Source: a virus. Taken from it: 21,876 bases of DNA. The notes beneath the pieces were generated by a model. It saw only the letters and a list, made by a program, of their open reading frames with translations, ran no database searches and was not told the origin of the DNA. The position numbers and the translations under genes were made by a program. Location of the stretch: positions 1-21,876 of the IMG/VR virus record IMGVR_UViG_3300033143_003465; one strand, given 5' to 3'. Shown in pieces: positions 2,738 through 15,505 of the stretch. Numbering within the stretch: the stretch's first letter is position 1; each line of letters starts with the position of its first letter.

Positions 2738-3072
2738 TGTATAAGATATTCGGAATGGCACCTACGATAAAGATGGTGGAATGGCTCATCGAAAATCAGG
2801 GACTCGATCACTCGATCTGGGAGATAGCGGAAGGCGCAAAACTGAGCGTAGCGGCGGCAAAGAAGAACTTCGAGCCACTCATACAGTATCATGTGGTGCG
2901 GGTCAGCCGAACCCTCCGGAGCACTTCGCTATACGTTCTCGATCTTCAGAGCCCATGCACAAGGGCCATAGTTGCATTCGATGAGAAGATTGCCAGGTGC
3001 TGCAGGGACGACGCCCCTCCCAGCGAAGAAGACACCGAGCGTTCAGAGTTCAATGTTCTGCAGGAGGAGTGA
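2734..3072 (+). CDS. Winged-helix DNA-binding protein
   Basis: 112 residues, preceded by GGAGG at 2722-2726 and overlapping the upstream stop as ATGA. Residues 8-70 read as a winged helix: a first helix (TIKMVEWLIENQ), a second (SIWEIAEGA), a recognition helix (SVAAAKKNFEPLIQY) and a wing (VVRVSRTLRSTSLYVLD). The end is acidic and lacks a second domain. It lies just before nrdD with a four-base gap, so control of nucleotide metabolism is possible but unproven. Confidence 0.7.
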   Translation: MMYKIFGMAPTIKMVEWLIENQGLDHSIWEIAEGAKLSVAAAKKNFEPLIQYHVVRVSRTLRSTSLYVLDLQSPCTRAIVAFDEKIARCCRDDAPPSEEDTERSEFNVLQEE

Positions 3073-3076
3073 ACTC

Positions 3077-4870
3077 ATGAATACAATAATCGAAGAATAT
3101 ATAAAGAACGGAACTGGCAAAGAGAACGCAAACACATCGTTCTCTGTTAGCGGACTCAAATCACATATCGCTGCAGCCATGTTGAAAGAATCCACGTTGT
3201 CGCAGTCCCCGGTGGCAGAATTTCATCGAGCAGGATCATTACATCTGCACGATCTGTCTGGTGGGGTATGGAGCGCATACTGCCGGGGGCTGGATTTAAC
3301 GCAGTTGCTTATGGAGGGAGTAAAGAATCCGTCCGGCACGTCCTCGACACCGGCAAAACATTTCGATGTCGCAGTTGATCATATCGTCAATTCGATGTAT
3401 GTTTCCCAGAATGAGTGGGAAGGGGCGCAGGCGTATAGCAATTTTGATACGCTGCTTGCTCCATTTGTGTATTACGACGATATGAGTTTTAGATCGGTTA
3501 AACAATCAATTCAACGAGCGGTGTTCAACCTTTCGTATCCGCTGAGAGCCGCATTCCAAACCCCGTTTACGAATTGGAGCTTTGATTTAAAATGTCCTGC
3601 ACACATGATGAACGAACCGGTTATCATTGGTGGGATGCCACAAGAGCGAACATACGGCGAGTTCCAGCGCGAGATGGACATGATCAACCTTGCTTTCATG
3701 GAGGTTATGATGGAAGGGGATAAGAACGGCAATCCCCATACCTTCCCGATACCTACATACAGCATAACAAAGGACTTCGATTGGGATTGCGAGGTAACGA
3801 CCAAGTTATTCGAGCTTACCGCTAAATTCGGTACACCTTACTTCATGAATTATATCGGATCTGGGCTTGATCCGTCCTCTACTCGTTCCATGTGCTGTCG
3901 GTTGAATCTTCGACTCGAAGATATTGTAGAAGCATCAAAAGGCGGGTTGTGGAACGCTGGCGTTGGTACGGGCTCATTAAGCGTCGTTACGATTAATATG
4001 CCGCAACTTGGGTATCTTGCACATAAAGATGTCAAAAATGATGGCGCAGTATCTGAATTTTTGTACGCTGACATGATCAAAGCCTTCTATACCCGTCTTG
4101 ATACACTGCTCGAAGCAGCACATAAACACAGCGAATGGAAGCGAGAGAAGATCAACGAAGGGTTCGAGATGGGACTTATGCCGTTCACAAAGAGTTATAT
4201 GGCAAATTTCAATTCATTCTTTTCGACTATCGGGCTTGTCGGGATGAACGAATGTTGTTTGAACATGTTTGGCAAACCTATATACGAATGTGTTGATTTC
4301 GTGGACGGCGTGTTGAGTTATATGCATACATACGTCCGCCGGTTGACAAGAGAACACGGATGCCCATATAATCTTGAAGAGTCCCCAGCCGAAGGCTGCT
4401 CACACAGCCTTGCATTGAAAGACAAAGTGAATTATCCAGACATAATCACTCAGGGCGAAGGTGACGGAATATTCTACACGAACTCATCACATATTTATGT
4501 CGGTGATGAACTCGGGCTCGGAGAATCTTTGCACATTCAAGAACGATTCAAGAAGCATTACAACGGAGGTACCATAGCTCATATTTTCTGTGGAGAATCT
4601 GCGCCAAGTGCAGGAGGAGTAAAAGACCTTATGAGAAACATTTGCACAAACACAACCATACCATATCTTGCATTGACCCGTGCGTATGCGGTATGTAATG
4701 AATGTGGAGTAATAAATGACTTATCTGGTATATGCCCAACGTGTGGATCGGAAACAACTGTTTGGGATCGCGTTACCGGATTTTACAGACCTGTAACCGC
4801 GTACAATGCAGGGAAGAAAGCAGAGTGGGAGAGTAGACACAGATTCGACATCGGAGGGTACAGTAAATGA
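3077..4870 (+). CDS. nrdD: Anaerobic (class III) ribonucleoside-triphosphate reductase, catalytic subunit, without ATP-cone
   Basis: This enzyme makes deoxyribonucleotides from ribonucleotides with a glycyl radical and works only without oxygen. ATG 3077 was chosen because GGAGGAG precedes it at 3063-3069; an upstream in-frame ATG at 2972 would overlap the previous gene by 100 bases. The 597 residues carry the family landmarks: C69 in AYCRGLDL and the Cys pair in SMCCRL (271-276), matching the radical-site cysteines; a zinc site C540/C543/C553/C556; and the glycyl-radical loop RVTGFY with G568. The usual roughly 100-residue N-terminal ATP-cone, which shuts the enzyme off with dATP, is missing, so it may escape feedback. 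No NrdG activase is present in the window; the host's or a distant viral one must load the radical. Confidence 0.93.
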   Translation: MNTIIEEYIKNGTGKENANTSFSVSGLKSHIAAAMLKESTLSQSPVAEFHRAGSLHLHDLSGGVWSAYCRGLDLTQLLMEGVKNPSGTSSTPAKHFDVAVDHIVNSMYVSQNEWEGAQAYSNFDTLLAPFVYYDDMSFRSVKQSIQRAVFNLSYPLRAAFQTPFTNWSFDLKCPAHMMNEPVIIGGMPQERTYGEFQREMDMINLAFMEVMMEGDKNGNPHTFPIPTYSITKDFDWDCEVTTKLFELTAKFGTPYFMNYIGSGLDPSSTRSMCCRLNLRLEDIVEASKGGLWNAGVGTGSLSVVTINMPQLGYLAHKDVKNDGAVSEFLYADMIKAFYTRLDTLLEAAHKHSEWKREKINEGFEMGLMPFTKSYMANFNSFFSTIGLVGMNECCLNMFGKPIYECVDFVDGVLSYMHTYVRRLTREHGCPYNLEESPAEGCSHSLALKDKVNYPDIITQGEGDGIFYTNSSHIYVGDELGLGESLHIQERFKKHYNGGTIAHIFCGESAPSAGGVKDLMRNICTNTTIPYLALTRAYAVCNECGVINDLSGICPTCGSETTVWDRVTGFYRPVTAYNAGKKAEWESRHRFDIGGYSK

Positions 4871-9762: not shown

Positions 9763-9924
9763 ATGACACGAATCATAACTCTATCATTTCGGAACGAAGA
9801 TGAAGACCTATGGGAGTTCATCGAAGAGACCACAGGGCAGCCCGTGACAGGCACGAAGATACGGGATATGCTACATGCTATCAAAGACGCAAGCGAGGCG
9901 AATGAACATGGCGAACAGAATTGA
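9763..9924 (+). CDS. Small ribbon-helix-helix-like DNA-binding protein, paralogue of 5787 gene
   Basis: 53 residues, first gene after its own promoter and probably leaderless. The N-terminal strand MTRIITLSF matches MTRIVINF of the gene at 5787, followed by two predicted helices (EDLWEFIEETTG and TKIRDMLHAIKDASE), as in ribbon-helix-helix regulators. The TTATAAGK repeats in the promoter are a natural target for self-control. The last 17 bases overlap the next gene. Confidence 0.55.
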   Translation: MTRIITLSFRNEDEDLWEFIEETTGQPVTGTKIRDMLHAIKDASEANEHGEQN

Positions 9925-10048
9925 GCACCTTGAATGCCCAGCGTGTAACGGCTCGGGCTGGATATGGGATTCTGAAACCGCAGGACTTCGCAGGAAATGT
10001 GTTGCGTGCGACGGCAAAGGATACGCGGGCAGAGCGGACGGTGAGTAA
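9908..10048 (+). CDS. DnaJ-type zinc finger miniprotein
   Basis: 46 residues with two CxxCxGxG motifs: CPACNGSG and CVACDGKG, about 13 residues apart, the signature of the DnaJ cysteine-rich zinc domain. There is no J domain, so it is a stand-alone zinc finger of the kind often seen in viral genomes; it may bind protein or nucleic acid. It starts inside the previous gene and ends just before the resolvase ATG. Confidence 0.65.
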   Translation: MANRIEHLECPACNGSGWIWDSETAGLRRKCVACDGKGYAGRADGE

Positions 10049-10049
10049 G

Positions 10050-10430
10050 ATGGTGACAAATCATCTGGTGATCTCATTCGGGCTGCCGAGTCAGAATGAT
10101 GTCATCAAGATAGCGAAGCGGCATTACATGGCGTATGCATCGGTGAAAAAGAAGAATACGAAACTGATAGAGGCAGAACTGATAGCGCAGGGATGCATCC
10201 CGGATAAGCCGTATTCGAGGATAGATATTGAATGCGTCTGGATCGAGACCGGCAGATCCAGAGATCCTGACAACATTCTTTGTGGTGGGTTGAAACCTAT
10301 CCTTGATGCAATGGTGAACCAGGGTATCATAGAGGACGATTCGATTAAACAGGTTAATCGGATCACCGCAACGTTTGAGCAAGGCAAAGAACGGGCAGTA
10401 ATCGTAAGATGGTGCGAGGCAAAACAATGA
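10050..10430 (+). CDS. RusA-family Holliday-junction resolvase
   Basis: 126 residues from ATG 10050 (GGTGA upstream); an open frame continues upstream but would overlap two genes. The diagnostic acidic core is present: RDPDN followed by LKPILDAM, then GIIEDDS and KQVNRI. These Asp residues bind metal in RusA, which cuts four-way DNA junctions and helps resolve viral DNA before packaging. The length fits the family (about 120). One normally basic position reads Cys-Gly-Gly (NILCGGLK), so activity is likely but not proven. Confidence 0.85.
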   Translation: MVTNHLVISFGLPSQNDVIKIAKRHYMAYASVKKKNTKLIEAELIAQGCIPDKPYSRIDIECVWIETGRSRDPDNILCGGLKPILDAMVNQGIIEDDSIKQVNRITATFEQGKERAVIVRWCEAKQ

Positions 10431-10576
10431 CAACACAAATAGAGGCAATGGAACAGGAATTAGATCGACTGGTAGCCCTTCGGGAGCGTTCAGTCGGGGT
10501 AGGTCTAAAGCGGACGAATTTCAGGATCGCAGAGTTGCAGAACAAGATCGATTGCATAAAGAGGTCAGAGCGATGA
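10427..10576 (+). CDS. Short coiled-coil protein
   Basis: 49 residues, mostly helical (EAMEQELDRLVALRERS and FRIAELQNKIDCIKRSE), overlapping both neighbours by four bases (ATGA). Likely a dimeric helical hairpin; no family recognised. Confidence 0.55.
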   Translation: MTTQIEAMEQELDRLVALRERSVGVGLKRTNFRIAELQNKIDCIKRSER

Positions 10577-11175
10577 GCGAAAGAACTGATCCGGCTACGC
10601 TCGACTGTGACCCCCAGCCGCAAGGATCGCAACCAGGACCCGAAGGGAAAATATGGTTCGACCCGGCTACGCCGTATTCAAAGTGTGCTCCAGAACCCGA
10701 AGAGAAAATATGGTTCGATGGTGTATGGCTTGACGCGCTGCTCTCATGCGAAAAGCAGCAGACCACCCGAAAGCAGACCGACCGGATCAAAGTCGGTGAT
10801 ACGGTGCCTGTCTACAATCATAAGTACAGAGCGATCCATGATAAGCCATTACGAACTATGACCGCAACCGGATCGAAGATGTTTATGGCTGACTATCCCT
10901 TTGTAAACACAAATAATACGCCGCCTAAGTATCATGCGCATTTCCTCGGTAAGGTCGTGATCACTGAGGTATACGACATCATTCCATCTGAGATGTCCGG
11001 CGAAGAACTCGAAGCGTGGGCTTGGGCGGACGGGTTCGATAGTATTGATGTTGCAAGGTGTTGGTTTGAGATTCGATATGGGACTCGCTGGATGCATAAG
11101 ACCTGGACAGCCATCTGTTGGCGAGGCTGGGCTGAGCGGTATTTTGAACCAGAAGTGGAGGCAGAAGACCGATGA
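10573..11175 (+). CDS. ASCH/PUA-like domain protein
   Basis: 200 residues from ATG 10573 (ATGA overlap with the upstream gene). The first 50 residues are Pro/Asp-rich with a duplicated EGKIWFD/EEKIWFD segment. From about residue 60 the pattern matches ASCH-type domains: TTRKQTDRIKVGDTVPVY, the strand FLGKVVITEVYDI, an acidic helix MSGEELEAWAWADGFDS and WFEIRYGTRWM near the end. ASCH domains are PUA-like RNA or modified-base binding folds, common in viral genomes. The final helix/strand (WTAICWRGW) closes the barrel. The function in the virus is unknown. Confidence 0.6.
   Translation: MSERTDPATLDCDPQPQGSQPGPEGKIWFDPATPYSKCAPEPEEKIWFDGVWLDALLSCEKQQTTRKQTDRIKVGDTVPVYNHKYRAIHDKPLRTMTATGSKMFMADYPFVNTNNTPPKYHAHFLGKVVITEVYDIIPSEMSGEELEAWAWADGFDSIDVARCWFEIRYGTRWMHKTWTAICWRGWAERYFEPEVEAEDR
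10638..10718 (+). repeat. 24-base direct repeat in the ASCH-like gene
   Basis: Bases 10638-10661 and 10695-10718 are the same 24-base sequence with one difference, 57 bases apart, so the reading frame is kept. They encode PEGKIWF and PEEKIWF. This looks like an in-frame duplication of 19 residues at the N-terminus. Confidence 0.85.
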
Positions 11176-11819
11176 AGCGTGGGTATTACGTACATGCAAA
11201 CGACGAGGTAGCGGGCTTTGCGGTAGTTGCCCCAACGGCGAAAGAAGCGAGGAAGATCGTGTATGCAGGGTATCCGGTGGACGTGGAATGGATCGATCTG
11301 CGCTGCCATTGGGTGCGTCATGCAGCAGTAGGCGATCTATCAGTTGGGTTGGTTGAGGACGCTCGCGAAGGGCTTCTGCGAGGATTTTATAAGATCTTGG
11401 AAGAGTATCCTTGTGATGGTTGCGGGGAGGATGCCGATGTCGTGAGCTATCAGGGGCGGGCGCTGTGCCCGTCCTGCATCCTCGCTTCGCGTGCCCAACG
11501 GAGGTACACGGTGCAAAATAAGATAATCGAGATGCTTAAGGAGCACCCACGCACATACTCGGAACTCCCGTCAGCAGTGAGCACATCGATGAGCTTATCC
11601 CACCGTATAATGGTTCACTCGATCAAGGTTGCAGGTGCGGGGAGCTTCCGCACTGTGTATTACATACGAGGCGACAAAGCCAGAGCGGTTGCATTATTTG
11701 TAGAGGTGAATAAATTGGAATTAGAGCGGCTTCGATGGGGCAGTTATAACGTTATTGACAGTGGACTATCGCGAGACACAGCGAAAGCAATCCGAGAGGC
11801 AATGACTCATGAATGCTAA
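11172..11819 (+). CDS. Zinc-ribbon and winged-helix protein of unknown function
   Basis: 215 residues in three parts: a small alpha/beta module (1-55; YYVHANDEVAGFAVVA then TAKEARKIVYAG), a zinc ribbon with C81, C84, C99 and C102, and a winged-helix-like region (about 113-170; QNKIIEMLKEHPRTYSELP and a following strand pair) with a basic helical end. The N-terminal module resembles the small protein at 16118. It is the first of four genes leading to the exported protein. DNA binding is likely; the target is unknown. Confidence 0.6.
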   Translation: MKRGYYVHANDEVAGFAVVAPTAKEARKIVYAGYPVDVEWIDLRCHWVRHAAVGDLSVGLVEDAREGLLRGFYKILEEYPCDGCGEDADVVSYQGRALCPSCILASRAQRRYTVQNKIIEMLKEHPRTYSELPSAVSTSMSLSHRIMVHSIKVAGAGSFRTVYYIRGDKARAVALFVEVNKLELERLRWGSYNVIDSGLSRDTAKAIREAMTHEC

Positions 11820-11997
11820 GAATTACGTGTATACTTGCTGCCCTGTGTGCTGCACTGAGCACAGGATACATAAGATGCGGGCGGCATGCTATATGATTCG
11901 ATGCACGAACTGCAAAGAATATTTCGCAGTCAGTAACCAGACGACAAAAGAGACGGCATTCATGAAAGCGTTCGCACCACGGAGGGAAAGATTATGA
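11809..11997 (+). CDS. Small zinc-ribbon protein
   Basis: 62 residues, start inside the previous gene by 11 bases. Two Cys clusters, CCPVCC (10-15) and CTNC (32-35), make a zinc ribbon; the end is basic (APRRERL). It overlaps the following gene by four bases. The family is not identified. Confidence 0.6.
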   Translation: MNAKNYVYTCCPVCCTEHRIHKMRAACYMIRCTNCKEYFAVSNQTTKETAFMKAFAPRRERL

Positions 11998-12842
11998 AAC
12001 CAAACGTGGTCTTGGATATAGTAGCAGTAGTAATAGTAGTAGCAGTAGTAATGATGTCAATGGTTATCTTATTCCTACCTAACGAGGTTGATGCCCCATC
12101 TGCTATCGATTCACCGGTTGCCAATATCATACAGCCGCATACAACACCAACTTATATCCCAACAATAATAGCCACACAAGCACCGATACCAAAGCCCGAT
12201 GTGCCGTATCATGCATTGGGAAACCGAAAGATGTGTGGGACTTGTCACCAATATCCCTCGTTTGATAGAAATAACGATCCTTACATGTCTGAAGGGGCAA
12301 TTTTCAAACATGCCGGTACAATCACACCAATACCGGCACAGACTGCCTTTGGTATGAGTCGTAACGTTCGTTCGACATATAACATGATGCCGATACCAGA
12401 GGAATACTATTCGCAAGGTTGTATGCTTCCGACAGACATGTCGATGCAGGAATATCTTGCAGATAGTAGATGGACAGATGATTACCAGTATGAAGCAAAC
12501 GCGTGGGATTGCTCACAGATGGCAGCATATATGGAATGGATGCTCGAAAACTGTGGATACCATGTTGTTATTAGATTGGCAGATGTAGAAGGCAAAGAGA
12601 ACGGGCACGCATGGATTCTTGTAGAATTTGAGCAGGGAATGCTTGCTTATGAATGTACTGGGCGGTACTGGGTATATCCAAGCAAAGAGATTGGGAGATC
12701 GTATAATTCAGACTCATATAATCCCAGTATGTATTATGCAGGGATTGAATACGAAAGCATTTATAATATTCGGGATGACTACAAGGGCTATATCGACGGT
12801 GAGGAAGCATTCCTGGAAGAGTTCGGATGGTGGATAATATGA
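11994..12842 (+). CDS. Membrane-anchored or secreted transglutaminase-like (Cys-His) protein with a CxxCH motif
   Basis: 282 residues. Residues 7-28 are a strong hydrophobic segment (signal or anchor, no Lys/Arg until after it), followed by a Thr/Pro-rich stretch (45-70), so the rest should lie outside the cell. Residues 171-207 carry the likely catalytic pair: C173 in WDCSQMA and H205 in GHAW, with E220 in YECT in the place of the usual acid. That order is typical of transglutaminase-like cysteine proteases and amidases. CGTCH at 81-85 is an exact c-type heme motif, but it could equally hold a metal or form a disulphide. Cutting host cell-surface material for entry or release is inference. 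GTA-rich codons repeat in the membrane segment (14-base repeat at 12021-12034 and 12039-12052). Confidence 0.65.
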   Translation: MKPNVVLDIVAVVIVVAVVMMSMVILFLPNEVDAPSAIDSPVANIIQPHTTPTYIPTIIATQAPIPKPDVPYHALGNRKMCGTCHQYPSFDRNNDPYMSEGAIFKHAGTITPIPAQTAFGMSRNVRSTYNMMPIPEEYYSQGCMLPTDMSMQEYLADSRWTDDYQYEANAWDCSQMAAYMEWMLENCGYHVVIRLADVEGKENGHAWILVEFEQGMLAYECTGRYWVYPSKEIGRSYNSDSYNPSMYYAGIEYESIYNIRDDYKGYIDGEEAFLEEFGWWII

Positions 12843-13267
12843 AGCAACAAATCAGAGTAACAAAGACGCAGAACGAATACCTAAAGGAACTCATAGACGG
12901 TCCGAAGACAACACGGGATATAGTCCTTTCACGAGAAATAAGCATGAAATCAGCAAGCAAGGTTCTCAAGAAGCTCCGGGATGCCGGGCTGATAACATCC
13001 ACCAGAGTCAAGGGCACGCCGGGCAACGTTAACATTCACGAGTTGACTGCCTCATACGCGGATCTTAACATCATTGTCAAAAACAACCATCGTAACGGTG
13101 GAGTTCCCGTTTCGGAAGAAGAGCTACAGTATGCTGCAATCCTCCGGAAAGAAGGATTAATAGGACAGCGGCTTATCGATAAGTACCACACAAGATTTCC
13201 GGATAGGTTGCCATTAACTATCCTAAATTATGTGGTACCGAAGGCACGGGCGCAAGGGTTGTTCTGA
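12839..13267 (+). CDS. MarR/winged-helix transcription regulator
   Basis: 142 residues from ATG 12839 (an ATG 12 bases earlier is in frame, but 12839 forms the ATGA overlap used throughout). The start is a clear winged helix: KTQNEYLKELIDGPKTTRDI, recognition helix SMKSASKVLKKLRDAGLI, wing ITSTRVKGTPGNV. The C-terminal half (85-142) has a second helical region with SEEELQYAAILRKEGL, resembling a helix-turn-helix of the RusA/terminase-linked kind. It lies between the exported protein and the membrane protease, so it may control them or bind DNA for packaging. Confidence 0.65.
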   Translation: MKQQIRVTKTQNEYLKELIDGPKTTRDIVLSREISMKSASKVLKKLRDAGLITSTRVKGTPGNVNIHELTASYADLNIIVKNNHRNGGVPVSEEELQYAAILRKEGLIGQRLIDKYHTRFPDRLPLTILNYVVPKARAQGLF

Positions 13268-13764
13268 TGACATACCAAAAGCACATTGAAACCGCATTGC
13301 TTGGCGCAATAGCCCTTTTGCTTGGGTGGACAGTCGGCACGCTTCTGCACGAAGGCTGCCACCTTCTCGCAGCCGGAGCGTTCAACATCCCTGCAACTCT
13401 CGGACAATGCACCCTATCGACTGGGTCAGTGGTTCTATATGGCTCGCTGACAGCCCCACAGACCGCCATCATTGCAATGGCGGGAAGTGTGGGGCTGGTG
13501 ATCGCCGGTGTCGTCATGGTGCGGCTATCAAGCAATCCTGCCATACGTATGGTGGGGGTTGTATTTCTGTGCAGGGCATGGGTGGATGTGCTCCCGATTG
13601 GCGGAATGGATGGTGCATTCATCGCTGGCAGTGCAGGATATTTTGTTGCATGGAGCATTGTTATCATCGAAATAATGATCTGTGGGGGGGTGGTATTTGG
13701 AGCAATGAACCCAAAACACGTACATGATCAGGCGTGCGAGAACGCAGGCATCCCGAAGGTTTGA
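13267..13764 (+). CDS. Small integral-membrane metalloprotease, M50 (site-2 protease) type
   Basis: 165 residues, almost all hydrophobic with about four to five membrane segments. HEGCH at 28-32 is an HExxH zinc motif inside the first membrane segment (LLHEGCHLLAAG). A second motif LPIGGMDG at 109-116 matches the NxxPxPxLDG motif of M50 intramembrane proteases, with D115 as the third zinc ligand. Both elements are needed for the family, and both are here in the right order, at the short end of its length range. Such proteases cut membrane-anchored proteins. The neighbouring anchored protein at 11994 is a possible substrate (inference). It is the last gene before the packaging operon. Confidence 0.7.
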   Translation: MTYQKHIETALLGAIALLLGWTVGTLLHEGCHLLAAGAFNIPATLGQCTLSTGSVVLYGSLTAPQTAIIAMAGSVGLVIAGVVMVRLSSNPAIRMVGVVFLCRAWVDVLPIGGMDGAFIAGSAGYFVAWSIVIIEIMICGGVVFGAMNPKHVHDQACENAGIPKV

Positions 13765-13770
13765 GGGCAA

Positions 13771-13780
13771 CTTTAATAAC
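13771..13780 (+). promoter_or_regulatory. Likely TATA box of the packaging operon
   Basis: CTTTAATAAC lies in the 45-base gap between the membrane protease and the terminase small subunit. Its position predicts transcription starting near 13800, ten bases before the ATG at 13810. The match to a TATA box is moderate. Confidence 0.45.
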
Positions 13781-13809
13781 CATCCTCAGATATAACATTT
13801 GGTTAAGGT

Positions 13810-14229
13810 ATGAAAGAACAGCAACGACACCGCGACGCATACGGTTATTACCGCGATATGGGTGCTACCGAAGGTAAGCGAAGTTTAGCGAAGGTAGCAA
13901 AAAAGTTTAGCGTTTCGGAAACGTCGATTAACAAGTGGAATGCCGCATTTGACTGGCAGGAAAAGGTTATGCTGCACGATCAGGAGGTACAGAAAGGTGT
14001 TCAAGAGAAGATGATGCCGGAGTGGATCGACGCTAAGGCATACCTCCTGAAAGTTGCGTTGGAGCAGGTTAAGAGGGGGCGTAACGAGGGCGTGGTGCCA
14101 GCATCGACACGAGACATGATGGCAGCGAGTAAGGAGGCGCGGTCGATCATGGGCGAGACGGATAGCTTAAATCTCAACACCACAATCAACGTGAAATACG
14201 AAGATCTTCCGAAAGATGACCAAGATTGA
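13810..14229 (+). CDS. Terminase small subunit (DNA-binding packaging protein)
   Basis: 139 residues directly before the large terminase, overlapping it by 14 bases. The N-terminal third holds a helix-turn-helix (GKRSLAKVAKKFSVSETSINKWNAAFDW), ending in the Trp typical of small terminases, and the rest is helical and acidic at the end. Small terminases recognise the packaging site and load the motor. The identification rests on the HTH plus the neighbour, which is the usual arrangement. Confidence 0.78.
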   Translation: MKEQQRHRDAYGYYRDMGATEGKRSLAKVAKKFSVSETSINKWNAAFDWQEKVMLHDQEVQKGVQEKMMPEWIDAKAYLLKVALEQVKRGRNEGVVPASTRDMMAASKEARSIMGETDSLNLNTTINVKYEDLPKDDQD

Positions 14230-15505
14230 ATGTGATGTTGTCCTGCGCAGACCCCATCCAGTACAGCAACTGATCCAGAACAGTCACGCAAAACGAAAGG
14301 TAGTTCGGGCGGGAAGGCGTGGAGGTAAAACCGTTTGCGCCGCATCGATCTGTGTAGAGAAGTTTCTACAGGGGCTCCGACCGCTTTATGCTGCACCAAC
14401 CTCTGACCAGCTGGACACACTCTGGTTTGAGGTCAAGAAGGCATTGCAGGAGCCAATAGATGCGGGGGTGTTCAAGAAGAACGAGACCGATCACACCATC
14501 GAACGACCGGGCACAAAGAACCGCCTCAAGGGGAAGACTGCGTGGGATAGCAACACTTTACGAGGTGATTATACTGATTTTCTGGTATTGGATGAGTTTC
14601 AAATGATGAACGAAGACACATGGGGGGTGGTGGGTGCACCCATGCTGCTTGATAATGACGGCTCTGCTATGTTTATTTACACGCCACCATCACGGTCCAC
14701 GCGGTCTATCACGAAAGCACAAGATCCGATGCACGCTGCAAAAATGTTTGCGAAGGCAGAGGAAGACCAATCTGGGCTGTGGGCGGCATTTCATTTTACA
14801 TCATTTGATAACCCCCACATCTCGAAAACCGCACTTAATGAGATCACCCAAGATATGACCGAGCTGGCGTATCGCCAAGAGATCCTCGCGAAAGATATTG
14901 ATGAAGTACCAGGGGCGCTCTGGACCCGAGCACGCATTGCTAAATGCAGAGTCAACACCTGCCCGGATTTAGTGCGGATCGTTGTGGGTATCGATCCGAC
15001 GGGCAGCACTCGCAATGAGACTGGGATAGTTGTAGCAGGCATGGACGCTACAGGACACGGCTATGTCCTCGATGATAAGAGCTTGCTTGGTACGCCGGGC
15101 GAGTGGGGGGATGCAGCCATAACCGCATATAATCACAATGATGCCGATGCAATAGTCGCAGAGGTAAATTTTGGAGGGGATATGGTGGAATCGAATATTA
15201 TGGGGATCGCCGATGCATCGAAACAGGTGTGTCGGTATAAGAATGTCCGCGCATCAAGGGGGAAAGCGGTGAGAGCAGAACCCATCGTAGCAAGGTATGA
15301 AAAAGGGATCATCCATCACATGGGTACGTTTCCGGCTATGGAGGAGGAAATGGTTTCGTGGGTTCCCGGTGAGTCAAAGTTTTCTCCAAATCGGATCGAT
15401 GCACTTGTATGGGCATTGACCGAGCTATTCATTCCACAGCCCGAGATGATCGACTCTCCCCTGCCAGTCCCGAGTGGGGGTGGTAGGCGGGTCTCGCCAG
15501 GGTAG
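14216..15505 (+). CDS. terL: Terminase large subunit (packaging ATPase and nuclease)
   Basis: 429 residues with the ATPase and nuclease halves of the family. Walker A GRRGGKT (33-39) and Walker B FLVLDEFQM (122-130, with catalytic E127) are clear. The RNase H-like nuclease carries D260 in VGIDPTGS, E316/D322 in EVNFGGDMV and D395 in NRIDALVWA, the usual metal ligands. It pumps viral DNA into empty heads and cuts it. It is normally followed by portal and capsid genes, but here four small genes follow instead. Confidence 0.94.
   Translation: MTKIECDVVLRRPHPVQQLIQNSHAKRKVVRAGRRGGKTVCAASICVEKFLQGLRPLYAAPTSDQLDTLWFEVKKALQEPIDAGVFKKNETDHTIERPGTKNRLKGKTAWDSNTLRGDYTDFLVLDEFQMMNEDTWGVVGAPMLLDNDGSAMFIYTPPSRSTRSITKAQDPMHAAKMFAKAEEDQSGLWAAFHFTSFDNPHISKTALNEITQDMTELAYRQEILAKDIDEVPGALWTRARIAKCRVNTCPDLVRIVVGIDPTGSTRNETGIVVAGMDATGHGYVLDDKSLLGTPGEWGDAAITAYNHNDADAIVAEVNFGGDMVESNIMGIADASKQVCRYKNVRASRGKAVRAEPIVARYEKGIIHHMGTFPAMEEEMVSWVPGESKFSPNRIDALVWALTELFIPQPEMIDSPLPVPSGGGRRVSPG

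Follow-up and report, generated by a model that had tools for sequence, protein, structure and literature searches.

A putative compact M50-type membrane protein encoded behind a winged-helix gene in a Methanosarcinales-linked tailed virus, with homologues beside host F430 genes

On mobile elements, an HExxH protease can accompany a repressor, as in the ImmR–ImmA system, and this arrangement serves as a comparison for a possible switch composed of a winged-helix protein and an M50-type protease. Among the site-2 proteases (S2Ps, M50B), SpoIVFB and mjS2P (MJ_0392) have two histidines and one downstream aspartate as zinc ligands, preceded by a beta re-entrant loop (PMC11486902). In these proteins, one hydrophobic segment has an HExxH motif towards its end, the next starts with an AGP motif and the third carries an [LM]DG motif close to its end. 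In the open-access literature we found no report of a virus-encoded M50 protein in methanogens, and two papers on viruses of methane-cycling archaea do not mention such proteins.

The stretch of DNA analysed here (the window) is a virus record of 21,876 bases that carries genes typical of head-tailed viruses, including small and large terminase (TerS and TerL) and Mu-F-like and HK97 gp10-like proteins. Its TerL shares 54% identity with the TerL of Methanosarcina virus MetMV and 81% with that of L015, a contig of a related virus found in a Methanosarcinales metagenome-assembled genome (MAG). TerS is 65% identical in L015, and the host link is completed by DNA matches of the window to the same genomes: TerS/TerL to G001, the anaerobic ribonucleotide reductase NrdD to G034, and the genes called TG and M50 below to G027 and G037, respectively. 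These data support an archaeal, Methanosarcinales-linked tailed virus, and the archaeal origin put forward in an earlier, sequence-only reading is upheld. That reading had also described three overlapping genes as one system, and the three ORFs are indeed present on the + strand. We refer to their products as TG (the anchored Cys-His protein), HTH (the winged-helix protein) and M50 (the HEGCH protein). The features discussed are listed here, L003 being a related IMG/VR contig.

26 to 1974, + strand: two ORFs of 468 and 179 aa, 50–60% identical to a gene pair near the M50 gene in host genome G029
11172 to 11819, + strand: 215-aa ORF whose end (11709–11822) is 100% identical in L003, where it abuts the HTH gene
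11809 to 11997, + strand: Cys-rich 62-aa ORF, nearly all inside the segment that varies relative to L003
11823 to 12850, no strand: segment of 1,028 bp missing from L003, comprising most of the 62-aa ORF, the whole TG gene and the first HTH codons
11994 to 12842, + strand: TG, N-terminally anchored Cys-His-Glu protein, 282 aa (C173, H205, E220; CGTCH before the catalytic-like domain), absent in L003
12827 to 13267, + strand: HTH, winged-helix (ArsR/MarR-like) protein, 146 aa, no transmembrane (TM) segment; its gene shares one base with the M50 gene, in L003 as well
13267 to 13764, + strand: M50/site-2-protease-type membrane protein, 165 aa (HEGCH 28–32; AGS 72–74; AWVDVLPIGGMDG 104–116)
13810 to 15505, + strand: TerS and TerL genes, late module of a head-tailed virus, 45 bp downstream of the M50 gene

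TG and HTH overlap by 16 bases, and HTH and M50 share a single base (TGATG). The three ORFs form the last slice of a run of at least 10 overlapping + strand ORFs that extends from 9763 to 13764 and ends 45 bp before the TerS gene, and within this layout no boundary sets them off from the upstream genes as a cassette. TG shows one strong N-terminal TM peak (residues 9–27) and M50 three to four hydrophobic segments, and HTH has no TM segment.

The viral M50 carries the S2P motifs in the same order and register. Its HEGCH motif lies by the end of a hydrophobic stretch at residues 9–28, AGS corresponds to the AGP of S2Ps at the start of the next segment, and LPIGGMDG (residues 109–116) ends in D115 and G116, which align with the MDG of archaeal S2Ps near the end of the third segment, where the third ligand is expected. 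Shuffling of its residues reproduced HExxH together with a correctly spaced P..(hydrophobic)DG in 3 of 200,000 trials. In a 17-row alignment of viral and host proteins, R103, W105, D107, P110, D115 and G116 are invariant, as are H28, E29 and H32 (17/17). An hhalign comparison of the family profile with archaeal S2Ps, most of which come from the same genomes, scored 85.5%, with the HExxH, AG[PS] and MDG blocks in register. Zinc ligands of two histidines and one aspartate, as in SpoIVFB and mjS2P (PMC11486902), can be predicted for the viral protein, and its residues 40–62, following HEGCH, may form the re-entrant loop.

The viral protein differs from the S2Ps in its small size (~165 aa, three to four hydrophobic segments), in lacking CBS and PDZ domains and in having GGMDG where S2Ps have (F/V)P(M/L)DGG. 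It also falls below every curated M50-family cut-off, and the viral sequence alone gives no match to PF02163 or PF13398. The host members alone reach PF13398, at E 3.6e-4 for the best of them, and PF02163 weakly, with the G037 copy scoring 17.1 bits against a cut-off of 26. A PDB profile search returned nothing meaningful, and an AlphaFold model from a two-sequence input (pLDDT 51) was poor and matched no fold. Because the viral protein lies below the cut-offs and the model is poor, it is placed in M50 on the strength of the host family and of the invariant residues. On this footing, the protease label drawn earlier from HEGCH and LPIGGMDG is supported by about 15 cellular homologues and the profile match, and we regard the protein as a compact M50/S2P-type candidate.

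The cellular relatives constitute an unnamed family, chromosomally encoded and present in about 15 Methanosarcinales genomes, with 41–50% identity to the viral M50. A genome scan that used the two viral M50 sequences gave no match because its patterns were too specific; the homologues surfaced after the host order had been reached through TerL. M50 homologues are present in 17 of the 186 genomes of the order to which the L015 MAG belongs, the level at which the clade is placed. The main clade contains 14 homologues at 44–50% identity (E 1e-30 or better), and all 14 genes adjoin cfbA and cfbE in divergent orientation. The two cfb products belong to coenzyme F430 biosynthesis, CfbA as nickelochelatase and CfbE as synthase, and NCBIfam equivalogs confirmed their identity in G027. 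This arrangement, an M50-like family divergent from cfbA–cfbE, recurs in every genome checked from one Methanosarcinales clade (L073 7182–8216, L076–L083, L085 and L087). More distant members (G180, G185, G244 and G261) are located apart from cfb genes within the sequence stretches read. The viral and host proteins share their length, the motif LCRAW[IV]D.LP..[LM]DG and the identity noted above, whereas the host genes adjoin F430 genes and the viral gene sits behind an HTH gene; the viral protein is also ~7 residues shorter after the DG motif. We know of no protease activity or substrate for the host family, which as a cellular M50-like family is so far undescribed.

Other viral genes have counterparts in the same host neighbourhood. 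The first two ORFs of the window have DNA matches in many of the same genomes. In G029, their homologues lie ~5 kb from M50, beyond cfbA, cfbE and SepS (the last named by eye), and in the distant member G244 one homologue is close to M50. The coordinates of these host homologues near M50 are L144 6064–13406 and L147 6416–8000. The 468-aa ORF has no Pfam match, and an RPA-like (OB-fold) label for the pair was given by eye. That several viral genes have counterparts in one host neighbourhood fits the capture of host DNA, although this is a post hoc observation.

Only two relatives were found in scans of viral contigs with each protein and with profiles, the IMG/VR contigs L002 and L003. L002 is 99.7% identical over window positions 11494–14164 and diverges afterwards. 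L003 is 100% identical over 11709–11822 and then jumps to 12851–13698, at 94%. The flanks of the missing segment join in frame (MNAKK|IRV), so that HTH in L003 begins with MNAKKIRV. The HTH–M50 pair is kept together in the window, L002 and L003, which represent one viral lineage with two distinguishable versions, ~94% identical in DNA. Comparison of the window with L003 gave dN/dS values of 0.19 for HTH and 0.20 for M50 (0.09 for M50 residues 1–128), and both genes are under purifying selection.

Natural neighbourhood of all three genes in relatives had been set beforehand as the test of a three-gene system, and TG fails it in L003. Each of the three genes occurs without the others, and L015 lacks all of them, with other genes preceding its terminase. 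Of the two relatives among viral contigs, L003 has HTH and M50 only, and protein searches of INPHARED gave no match for M50 or TG. The proposed three-gene system is not supported by this distribution.

The reading we favour, which we judge to have about an even chance of being correct, is that a head-tailed archaeal virus captured a host M50/S2P-type gene, which sits immediately after HTH and is maintained by purifying selection, the anchored protein being separate. The product would be a membrane protease homologue, probably active and predicted to cut a membrane protein. It would have about four TM helices and a re-entrant loop, with zinc bound by H28, H32 and D115 and with E29 as the base, and would cleave a membrane-embedded substrate. 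The viral M50 would most likely act on the host version's substrate or partner, or compete for it, and a host envelope or membrane process could thereby be altered during infection. HTH would regulate viral transcription independently. TG would be a separate accessory gene from a host surface-protein family, with its product predicted to lie outside the membrane and to act either on the envelope of the host or against competing viruses. The branch leading to the viral M50 is long, at 1.88 changes per site, and the function of the protein may have changed as a result. Few archaeal virus genes beyond the virion and replication modules allow a plausible biochemical activity to be proposed. With intact catalytic residues, a cellular counterpart at a fixed F430-side locus and a natural relative that lacks TG, the M50 gene offers a testable route to the effects that tailed viruses of methane-cycling archaea have on the membrane of their hosts.

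One alternative is that M50 and the product of the overlapping HTH gene form a switch, the regulator being freed or inactivated by the protease either directly or via a partner in the membrane. The 1-base overlap and the similar purifying selection on the two genes are consistent with such a pair, which stays under consideration because HTH and M50 occur together in all three contigs of the lineage. HTH, however, has no TM segment, its 42% identical relative on a small G034 contig has no M50 on that contig, and the M50 genes of the hosts lack an HTH partner. This last point covers about 14 host genomes; many of the genomes are fragmented, such that a missing neighbour is sometimes a contig end. 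On balance we consider this alternative unlikely.

Still more doubtful, in our judgement, is an inactive mimic that does not cleave and serves as a decoy for the host protease or its substrate. The long viral branch and the ~7 residues missing after the DG motif could be read in this way, but all presumed catalytic residues are retained despite only 41–50% identity to the host proteins. We would also assign a low likelihood to the fullest version of the protease reading, namely that an active intramembrane metalloprotease was taken from a host F430 and replication-protein locus and forms with HTH a switch based on regulated intramembrane proteolysis, by which the state of the host membrane would be sensed or rewired during infection. 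The sequence-only reading had proposed that M50 cuts the TM anchor of TG for release at the surface during entry or exit, under winged-helix control, which we regard as very improbable: the genes are adjacent and overlapping, the single N-terminal TM segment of TG is a topology that S2Ps can cut and a TG homologue (51%) in G027 lies 2.2 kb from an M50 homologue on the same strand, but L003 retains HTH and M50 without TG, the host M50 genes have no TG nearby except in G027, many anchored TG-family proteins have no M50 neighbour and the G027 copy is anchored by a lipobox, so that TM cleavage would be unneeded there.

The winged-helix label has held up, if narrowly: HTH matches PF01022 (ArsR) at 22.4 bits against a cut-off of 22 (E 1.2e-4). 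With PADLOC, weak matches of winged-helix type to Csa3-type regulators were the sole result, and no defence system is indicated. A 3-kb virus-like contig of G034 (C134, L074) encodes an ERCC4/Hef-like nuclease, a relative of HTH and a TFB-like C-terminal protein, all named by eye.

The pseudomurein endoisopeptidases PeiW and PeiP have a transglutaminase-like Cys-His arrangement. To our knowledge, Methanosarcinales have no pseudomurein. Like these methanogen-virus enzymes, TG is a viral, and in its case putative, cysteine enzyme, but PeiW and PeiP are lytic against pseudomurein (PMC4592898), whereas TG is membrane-anchored and sequence searches tie it to no known family. Its earlier description as an anchored transglutaminase-like protein stands for the anchor and for the conserved Cys, His and Glu; the transglutaminase part is a resemblance in motif spacing only because no transglutaminase profile matches. 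TG has no match among Pfam (including Transglut_core), NCBIfam or PDB profiles, and hhalign of the TG family against Transglut_core, with only two template sequences, gave under 1%. A single-sequence model of very low confidence places the Cys at a helix start and the His and Glu on strands.

The C-terminal domain of TG is common to a family of lipoprotein- or TM-anchored proteins that is widespread in the host clade; C173, H205 and E220 do not vary within this family. Compared with members in G026–G041, TG has the same PxPYY-type, DC[SG], HAW and AxE[PC]T motifs and an ExxWW-type C-terminal end. Its best relative, in G027 (51–53% identical), is inserted between SepS and cfbE and has a lipobox where viral TG has a plain TM segment. 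At 0.43 (versus about 0.5), the GC content of the TG gene is below that of its neighbours, in the viral genome as well as on the contig of G027, and this points to an accessory, mobile gene. Unlike the other family members read, the window and G027 copies have an extra CGTCH stretch, in the context KxCGTCHxYPS(Y/F)DxxN. This motif resembles a c-type haem attachment site and is found at window positions 12234–12248 (TG residues 81–85) and in L073 4783–5583.

Two further observations concern other parts of the window. Sharp mosaic breakpoints occur at the terminase (14164–15445), where the TerL sequences of L002 and L003 differ within flanks that are about 87–99% identical. The window also encodes the anaerobic ribonucleotide reductase at 2972–4870, and this region is 79% identical in DNA to a small G034 contig that also matches positions 10929–11040 and is probably a related virus.
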